DNA of 64,000 nucleotides from Longimicrobiales bacterium (GTDB taxonomy: Bacteria > Gemmatimonadota > Gemmatimonadetes > Longimicrobiales > Gaopeijiaceae), in the NCBI GenBank assembly GCA_029245345.1, contig JAQWPM010000007.1:62001-126000 (forward strand), read 5' to 3'. The translations under genes and the position numbers were made by a program. Positions 28,114 to 29,690 of the stretch are shown one piece after another (positions within the stretch are counted from its first letter, which is position 1; each line of letters opens with the position of its first letter). Below the pieces are notes generated by a model, which ran no database searches, was not told the DNA's origin, and saw only the letters and a list, made by a program, of their open reading frames with translations.

Positions 28114-29141
28114 GCCCATCCTCCGAGTTCCTTTTCCGCCTGCCGAAGGCAGAGTTGCATGTGCACTTAGACGGCAGCCTACGTACCGACACGATGCTCG
28201 ACCTTGCGGCCGAACGAGGCATCACGATGCCTGCTCCGACCGCGGAAAGCCTCTACGAGTACATGGTCGTATCGGACGCGGAAAACCTCGAAGAGTACCT
28301 CGCGCGCTTCCACCTGACGTTGTCCGTCATGCAGGACGCCGAAGCGATCGAACGCATCGCCTACGAGTTGGCCGAGGATCACGCCAAAGAGAACGTCACC
28401 TACATGGAGGCGCGCTTCAGCCCGATCCTCAACGCTGAAGGTGATCTGGAGCCCTACGAAGCCCTGGAAGCGGCGCTGCGCGGGCTCTCTCGAGCGGAAC
28501 AGGACTACGACATCCGCACTGGAGTCATCGTCTGCGCCCTTCGGAGCCTCCCGGCATCTGTGTCCACCGAAATGGCTGAATTGGCCGTCGGACATGCCGA
28601 TAAGGGCGTGTGCGCGTTCGACGTGGCGGGTGCAGAGGCAGGAAACCCAGTCCGAGACCACCTCGAAGCCCTCAGAACGGCGGACGCCGCGGGCCTTCCG
28701 ATTACGATCCATGCCGGAGAGGGCTTCGGCGCATCGTCGATCCGGCAAGCGGTCGACGAAGGCCGTGCAGGGCGCATCGGCCACGGCACACGCCTCCTGG
28801 AGGATGAAGAGCTCCTCGCCCAGGTAAGGGACGCTGGCATCGCTCTGGAGGTCTGTCAGACTTCCAACGTACAGACCAGGGTCGCCGCGACCCACGCGGA
28901 CCATCCCCTCAAGCACTACTACGACGAGGGCGTCACGGTGTGCATTGGCACAGACAACCGTCTGATGAGCGGTGTGACGCTCACAGAGGAGTACGAGCAC
29001 GCTCGGGATGACCTCAGGTTTACTGAAACTGAGCTGCTTCGGGTGGCTCGGATGGGCTTTGAGAGCGCGTATGTGGGTGCTGACGCGAAGACTGAGCTGT
29101 TGGCGGACTTTGACGGGCGGGTTGAGGTGCTGACGGGCTAA
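28110..29141 (+). CDS. add: Adenosine deaminase
   Basis: The 343-aa TIM-barrel amidohydrolase has metal ligands His17 and His19 (H-V-H-L-D-G-S-L-R), the H-A-G-E box at 201-204, His225 in R-I-G-H-G, and Asp282 in G-T-D-N-R-L-M-S. The T-D-N-R form, rather than T-D-D-P, is also found in actinobacterial Add proteins. It deaminates adenosine to inosine and so links salvage to the de novo genes upstream. The start is TTG at 28110, overlapping the purF stop. It is the last gene of the plus-strand run. An adenine- or futalosine-specific relative is less likely. Confidence 0.9.
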   Translation: MSPSSEFLFRLPKAELHVHLDGSLRTDTMLDLAAERGITMPAPTAESLYEYMVVSDAENLEEYLARFHLTLSVMQDAEAIERIAYELAEDHAKENVTYMEARFSPILNAEGDLEPYEALEAALRGLSRAEQDYDIRTGVIVCALRSLPASVSTEMAELAVGHADKGVCAFDVAGAEAGNPVRDHLEALRTADAAGLPITIHAGEGFGASSIRQAVDEGRAGRIGHGTRLLEDEELLAQVRDAGIALEVCQTSNVQTRVAATHADHPLKHYYDEGVTVCIGTDNRLMSGVTLTEEYEHARDDLRFTETELLRVARMGFESAYVGADAKTELLADFDGRVEVLTG

Positions 29142-29162
29142 AGAAGGCAGGCGAACGCGCGC

Positions 29163-29296
29163 GACGCTGCTCTTCGCGGGTGCGCTGCGTTCTGGCTGGG
29201 GTCTTTCCGGGCCTCAAGGGGGTCTTCCTGTGCTCTTGCTTGCTCGTTCACTTCGCTCCGAGGCATAGCCCCTCGAGCCCCGCGAAGAGCAGCGTC
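29163..29296. repeat. 18-bp perfect inverted repeat enclosing 98 nt
   Basis: The arm GACGCTGCTCTTCGCGGG (29163-29180) is repeated exactly, inverted, at 29279-29296. Inside, smaller complementary pieces also pair, such as GCCTC near 29209 with GAGGC near 29260. As RNA it would fold into one long closed stem with inner branches. As DNA it looks like a small palindromic element with no coding capacity. No target-site duplication is obvious next to the arms. Confidence 0.6.
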
Positions 29297-29420
29297 ACAC
29301 ACGTCCCCCCGCCCCGCTTTGGAGGCACAACCGGCATCCCGTTTCGGGTACCTCCGCTTCGCGGTCAGCTGGTTGTCTCCACGGGTACCTGGCCAATCGC
29401 CGTCTCGTGAGATGGATGGC

Positions 29421-29486
29421 GGCGAGGCTCGTCATGGTTCGCTGGGGCACAGGTCGCGCTACGCGCGACTACGGCGGGGCCTCGCC
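29421..29486. repeat. Nested inverted repeat (cruciform or branched-hairpin unit)
   Basis: GGCGAGGC at 29421-29428 pairs with GCCTCGCC at 29479-29486, extendable by a T-G and a C-G pair. It encloses a second perfect hairpin, GTCGCGC-TAC-GCGCGAC at 29453-29469. The nested arrangement in the same short non-coding gap as the 18-bp inverted repeat makes chance less likely. Its role is unknown. Confidence 0.5.
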
Positions 29487-29616
29487 AGAGAGCGCGGCGG
29501 GGGCGCTTCGTACCGTCGGGCCTACGTGACCCATGAAGTGGTACTCCAGGTGTAATAAACGCTGCGAGAAGGGCCCGCGCTCACACAGCCACACGCGAAC
29601 ACAAGCCTACTCACGC

Positions 29617-29650
29617 AAAAAACCCCCGCCGGACCGAAGTCCGACGGGGG
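29617..29650 (-). terminator. Strong intrinsic terminator of the large lipoprotein gene (possibly bidirectional)
   Basis: On the minus strand a GC-rich hairpin, with CCCCCGTCGGA pairing with TCCGGCGGGGG and one mismatch, is followed at once by six T (29617-29622) about 40 nt past the stop at 29691. Read on the plus strand the same hairpin is followed by a short CCTTTTC, so it may also end transcripts from add. Confidence 0.85.
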
Positions 29651-29690
29651 CCTTTTCGCTCAGGTAGCGTGAGCTACCCGGAGTTCAGCG

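Follow-up and report, generated by a model that had tools for sequence, protein, structure and literature searches.

A family of hairpin elements, apparently undescribed and scattered through genomes of Gemmatimonadota, has one of its copies in a non-coding gap of a Longimicrobiales genome. Here, we describe this copy, which lies in a window of 64,000 nucleotides (the whole stretch of DNA that was analysed), together with its relatives. Throughout the family the sequence of the hairpin tip is conserved, that of the stem mostly is not, and the complementarity of the stem is kept. We think it rather probable that the element is a dispersed, non-coding, non-autonomous palindrome, seen so far only in one family of this phylum.

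The gap is bounded by two convergent reading frames. The upstream gene encodes an adenosine deaminase (PF00962, stop codon 29139-29141) and stands behind purL- and purF-like frames, which carry AIRS and glutamine-amidotransferase domains. The frame on the other side is listed with the remaining features in the table below; as judged by eye, it has a lipoprotein-like signal near its start. The earlier note gave the length of the gap as about 475 nt, which is too short, as the two genes stop at 29141 and 29691. From its sequence the gap is unlikely to be coding, and we rejected this reading: the two plus-strand ORFs inside it are of 76 and 78 amino acids. The note's 18-bp perfect inverted repeat enclosing 98 nt, on the other hand, was confirmed at 29163-29180 and 29279-29296. 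It is contained in arms of 35 nt, which are 83% complementary and enclose the same 98 nt. A scan of the window for inverted pairs, with seeds of 10 nt, a minimum arm length of 20 nt and a maximum separation of 200 nt, gave four in total. The gap repeat is the only one of its kind; the remaining three are overlapping palindromes of 21-23 nt. No partner hairpin for this copy was found within the window. The terminator-like hairpin close to the end of the gap is a neighbour which lies outside the element.

Table. Features of the window copy and its surroundings (positions are those of the window).
Feature	Position	Strand	Remark
Non-coding gap	29142-29690		between the adenosine deaminase stop and the stop of the convergent frame
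P1 outer arm (3' arm on the minus strand)	29146-29180	minus	pairs with 29279-29313; 4 nt from the adenosine deaminase stop; base 29180 also belongs to the 3' core
Conserved 3' core with P3 closing pairs	29180-29189	minus	CGCAGCGC on the minus strand; adjoins the stem
Expanded P3 loop, about 65 nt	29190-29253	minus	copies found in other genera have a much shorter loop
Apical hairpin P2	29254-29277	minus	minus-strand sequence CTCGAGGGGCTATGCCTCGGAGCG; covaries and is conserved across the family
P1 inner arm (5' arm on the minus strand)	29279-29313	minus	perfect over 29279-29296
Inner flank	29319-29383		GGAGGCAC motif and local hairpin; the second unit of the earlier note
Terminator-like hairpin with T-run for the minus-strand gene	about 29620-29655	minus	read by eye, partly flagged by the scan
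Reading frame of 1108 aa	29691-33017	minus	SdrD_B/CarboxypepD_reg-like domains or repeats; convergent on the gap

The window copy has an unusually stable predicted fold. Folded as minus-strand RNA, positions 29143-29316 gave -102.7 kcal/mol (z -6.5), and none of 200 shuffled sequences was as low. Over 29142-29670, a stretch which includes the terminator-like hairpin, the z value was -5.2 for the minus strand versus -2.4 for the plus strand, and the unit folded as single-stranded DNA gave z -3.9. A chance fold of GC-rich DNA was thus rejected, both by the shuffles and by the existence of further copies. A separate, nested hairpin unit had also been noted, and part of this claim stood: the hairpin at about 29320-29380 is unusual (plus strand, z -3.5, 1 of 200 shuffles as low), whereas the entire middle stretch 29317-29560 is ordinary (z -1.8, 11 of 200 shuffles as low). 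The independence of the two units, which had been proposed, is improbable: the second lies in the inner flank of the first, where the motif GG(N)CAC recurs beside copies of the genus. It was present inside the stem foot at 20 of the 22 copies of the genus, in comparison to 18% of random 64-mers from the window.

Copies of the element occur elsewhere in the same genome and in relatives. The BLASTN comparison proposed in the earlier note was positive: the 475-nt gap matched three more places in its own genome (G000), two of which form one inverted pair, and, in a search of 38 relatives, it gave core matches in a congener (G001). Single matches of 22-31 nt in 4 of 39 genomes (G010, G013, G034 and G037; E 2e-4 to 9e-4) were taken as chance, and DNA matches at E 0.007-0.009 in 3 of 121 family genomes were set aside for the same reason. 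The first ten copies align on a common core, and every copy has its own complementary arms. With a covariance model of these ten copies (R1), 6 copies were detected in G000 and 15 in G001, and 22 other genomes had none; on 154 genomes of the order, the same model additionally gave one copy each in two further genera. A model of 21 copies (R2) had matches in 8 of 394 genomes of the class, all of them within the window's family. A third model (R3, 31 copies) gave 40 matches in 11 of 32 selected family genomes, a set which includes all earlier positives and is no prevalence sample. After a G021 match with 10-bp arms and a weak G128:C113 match had been dropped, the final tally came to 38 copies in 10 genomes and 7 genera, all of the window's family; G000 accounts for 7 of these and G001 for 16, and 8 further members have 1-4 each. 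The model searches of the order (154 genomes) and of the class (394 genomes) gave no match outside this family; they scored 22 (order) or 8 (class) candidates per genome and missed copies, G001 yielding 8 instead of 16.

The core pattern was also searched for in genome and viral contigs. It was present in four contigs of the congener's MAG and in one Luteibacter contig, where we regard the match (16.8 bits, 18 model positions) as chance, and in none of the viral contigs. A phage or plasmid origin was rejected, as a 691-base stretch of G001 holding a pair had no match in the phage or the plasmid collection. In the titles and abstract openings of the open-licence literature searched, no description of this family was found.

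The element is best read on the minus strand. Its long stem, P1, has about 20-36 bp, the hairpin at its apex is termed P2, and a short P3 completes the unit, which measures about 75-170 nt. P2 has the form GCT-CGAGGC-loop-GCCTCG-[G]-AGC, and the extra G is found in most copies although its pairs change. P3 closes a loop of 3 to about 75 nt across copies. This loop is shorter in other genera (e.g., GCG-AAG-CGC), thus the window's genus has an expanded form of it.

Strong covariation was found when the copies were compared, a check which the earlier note had suggested. In the alignment A4 (21 copies), which was made from sequence only and covers P1 (22 of up to 36 pairs), P2 and P3, 26 of the 32 pairs changed on both sides and P2 was 97.6% paired. 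Pairing was seen in 88.2% of 672 cells of this alignment, as compared to 67.5% after shuffling and 37.6-46.3% with partners slid by 1-3 columns; nine of its 19 genus copies were first found by R1, and the outer ten of its 22 stem pairs lie outside that model. The alignment A6 (31 copies) was fitted to the model and leans towards it, and we therefore take A4 as the main evidence for covariation, while A5 misplaced short cores and was left out.

The arms match within each copy far better than between copies. Mean arm complementarity in 19 copies was 84% within versus 48% between copies, and in the stems of 33 copies 920 of 1041 ungapped positions (about 88%) were matched, with 12 gaps. The 121 mismatches of these stems comprise 49 of the G-U type, 24 of the A-C type and 48 transversions. 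That 72 of them are not wobble pairs is unusual for a helix selected purely as RNA, and so is the finding that P2 has no G-U pair in A4 or A6. The excess of G-U-type over A-C-type mismatches (49 to 24, 33 copies, binomial p 0.005) applies to the strand which reads P2 before P3; taken separately, the two halves of the data show it weakly (19 copies, p 0.044; 14 copies, p 0.071), and models that favour G-U pairs helped to find many of the copies. A zone of mismatches 7-9 bp from the tip recurs, with 9-11 of the 31 copies of A6 unpaired at each of three columns. The arm statistics of the 19 and 33 copies omit three copies without a detected core pattern (both G000:C26 copies and the G001:C79 minus copy, which has one mismatched arm) as well as the G001:C21:29716, G132:C5 and G128:C113 matches.

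Sites shared between species were used to follow stem changes. At the NUDIX/PD40 site, common to both species of the genus, the cores are reciprocal best matches among 19, and 14 of the 35 stem positions have changed on both arms, in comparison to 3 that have changed otherwise. In two species of another genus, a pair stands at the 3' end of an rpoC-like gene (PF04998): one hairpin shows three paired changes and no other over its inner 20 bp, while its partner has one paired versus four other stem changes (1/5 paired). At this site 56 nt over the tip are identical between the two species, within a stretch that is 74% identical overall. At a secA-like 3' site the identical run over the tip is 60 nt, again between two species; the secA-like gene itself has identical runs of up to 68 nt, and the tip runs are no longer than these. 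Three paralogous comparisons (L046, L048 and L051) gave 4, 6 and 7 paired versus 5, 3 and 5 other changes. Sites of doubtful orthology were not counted as compensatory (L043/L044 with 7 paired and 19 other changes, L039/L038 with 3 and 13), and the stem comparison L044/L054, distorted by an indel, was excluded.

Shared occupancy does not always reflect vertical inheritance. The adenosine deaminase site is occupied in both species of the window's genus; however, the window core has its nearest match in the core of the Mrp site, the G001 core of this site most resembles copies of another site, and the best core match at the MatE site is one-sided. The copies at these two sites may be replacements or independent arrivals. 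Some further features of these loci were seen. Behind the adenosine deaminase gene in the congener, a second, tandem copy of the outer stem arm is seen, and the pair is followed by a reading frame that carries the C-terminal domain of a Mu-type transposase, PF22483 (L015, G001:C21, about 2520-2630; L044, 2055-3110). The MatE transporter frame of the congener (L038, 84-1553) runs on into the element, as though a deletion had removed both the left hairpin and the end of the gene itself. At the rpoC site (L106, about 1420-1640), a GC-rich hairpin with a T-run between the two hairpins and a TTGACA...TATAAC sequence after the second were seen by eye; the pattern scan flagged neither the terminator nor the promoter, and they were not used as evidence.

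The two congeners differ in the sites that are filled. At the ABC-F/MoxR site, the two genes are separated by 20 nt in G000 and by 667 nt, which include a hairpin pair, in G001; the flanks are 76-80% identical. The Mrp site carries the element in G001 but is empty in G000, and the purA site is filled only in G000. Emptiness was compared at these three sites only, and with two species the differences could represent loss rather than gain. No target-site duplication was readable at the MoxR site. Of the 38 copies, 20 belong to ten inverted pairs, which are all arranged minus-then-plus and whose modelled parts are separated by 81-364 nt. In the R3 search of 32 genomes we saw no autonomous or longer copy, and no pair exceeded 364 nt between modelled parts. 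The 22 copies of the genus lie at 14 sites, and 16 of 21 assignable outer neighbours face the copy with their 3' end. Two irregular arrangements were also observed. One G005 copy (L108, 1320-1450) is adjoined by a partial duplicate of the inner arm and P2, without an outer arm of its own and, unlike in the inverted pairs, in the same orientation. The spacer that separates the hairpins in L036 (about 1350-1455) contains CAACCCCCGTGCC at 1353 and again at 1404, a direct repeat whose period is 51 nt.

Several known classes share traits with the element, and each of them differs from it. The terminal repeats of MITEs are conserved because the transposase reads them. Our element resembles MITE-type elements (RU/ERIC, Correia, bcr1) in being non-coding, capable of forming hairpins and present or absent at orthologous sites (MoxR, Mrp and purA). 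Its arms, however, are its least conserved part, and the difference in arm complementarity given above led us to reject an ordinary MITE. An intrinsic terminator was rejected as well, since the window hairpin has no T-run and terminator-like sites occur in the window only at 29564-29578 and 29624-29639; at the rpoC site (L106), two overlapping terminator-like matches lie on P2 of the second hairpin, minus strand, where 1.0 is expected. A known RNA family was also rejected, as Rfam gave no match above the gathering threshold in the window or in 7 further loci. The best sub-threshold match on the hairpin, to the MIR1437 precursor, reached 31.6 of 168 bits.

Of the three options raised in the earlier note, i.e., a structured RNA, a REP- or MITE-like family and a regulatory 3' region, the palindromic repeat family is best supported, although in a form that is neither a strict REP nor an ordinary MITE. 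In PMC3733652, REPs are described as forming inverted dimers with small-hairpin spacers at 3' or convergent locations, with alternative complementary stem residues between subfamilies. They measure 20-40 bp, and their stems are mostly of 6-9 bp (12-13 in the GTAG-24 family). The present copies are likewise dispersed intergenic palindromes downstream of genes (16 of the 21 assigned copies of the genus, at gene 3' ends), often in inverted pairs (ten of them) with structured spacers, and they too have alternative complementary stem residues. They differ from REPs and BIMEs in the stem of about 20-36 bp, the two-hairpin tip, the number of copies (at most 16 seen per genome) and the size of the unit, about 75-170 nt. 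That the family is a REP/BIME of the RAYT-mobilised kind, which these likenesses might suggest, seems to us highly improbable. The Y1/RAYT transposase (PF01797) was found in neither G000 nor G001 (98% and 94% complete), whereas 5 of 14 control genomes were positive, and there is no consistent GTAG/CGTC tag: at the inner foot GTAG occurs in 2 of 34 and CGTC in 6 of 34 (0.6 and 2.0 expected), and at the outer foot GTAG in 2 of 34, CGTC in 0 of 34 and GTTC in 7 of 34 (1.3 expected). REP/RAYT identity was thus rejected for G000 and G001.

A structured non-coding RNA or an mRNA 3' element, in which the transcribed fold would protect or process transcripts or make antisense RNA, is a possible explanation, if on balance an unlikely one. 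Covarying helices are a trait of structured RNAs and are strongly developed here; the position after stop codons, the wobble bias on one strand and the long identical runs at the rpoC-like and secA-like sites would suit it as well. However, a copy usually faces the 3' end of a gene to which its wobble-biased strand is antisense, and an mRNA 3' element is therefore not favoured. Moreover, the absence of G-U pairs from P2 and the negative Rfam result speak against an RNA element, and a mobile element accounts better for sites that are filled in one congener and empty in the other. We consider it still less probable that the palindrome is maintained purely by mutation, that is, by template switching which copies one arm onto the other without any selection on folding. 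Such a process agrees with stems that differ far more than the tip and are yet about 88% matched, and PMC6649704 discusses both concerted arm evolution and template switching for nematomorph mitochondrial palindromes. These also have long inverted-repeat arms that evolve in concert; they differ in lying in coding genes and in that nearly all long ones are perfect, and the passages on them mention no dispersed family with a conserved tip. Purely mutational maintenance would leave unexplained the conserved tip and the covariation of P2, the inverted pairing and the spread to many sites, and the recurrent mismatch zone close to the tip counts against it.

We favour, with moderate confidence, a low-copy, non-autonomous, REP/BIME-like mobile element that is recognised by its tip as a folded strand. 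The conserved tip, the stem that mainly pairs and the mild wobble bias on one strand fit recognition of a folded single strand. No mobilising enzyme was identified, PF01797 being absent from G000 and G001. Under this reading, some enzyme or binding protein would recognise the tip of the folded strand, which could be single-stranded DNA during replication or transposition, or RNA. If recognition is based on the tip, the stem would need only to pair, and a mutation in one arm would be compensated in the other, through selection and probably also through template copying between the arms; the stem could thereby drift quickly. The copies behind the rpoC- and secA-like genes may have become 3'-end elements of the host.

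The terminal repeats of parvoviruses and AAV are T-shaped, with a long stem and two small tip hairpins, and stand inverted at both ends of the unit. The likeness to our element is one of shape only, in the stem with two tip hairpins and in the inverted orientation. By this analogy, an inverted pair might be a hairpin-ended mobile unit replicating through its ends, whose T-shaped hairpins would prime or receive DNA synthesis, each round re-copying one arm from the other; we regard this as a rather remote conjecture. If true, the ends would stay self-complementary while their sequence drifts, and the chemistry at the ends of this bacterial element would resemble that of parvoviruses.

Dispersed palindromes are common, and REP families are defined by the sequence of both stem and loop. 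Here the stem is free to change, and it is mainly pairing and a small tip that are kept across seven genera. The family thus offers a natural test of how a folded strand may be recognised independently of its stem sequence and of how fast the arms of a bacterial palindrome get corrected, and its covariance model can be used for annotating gaps in the genomes of this Gemmatimonadota family.
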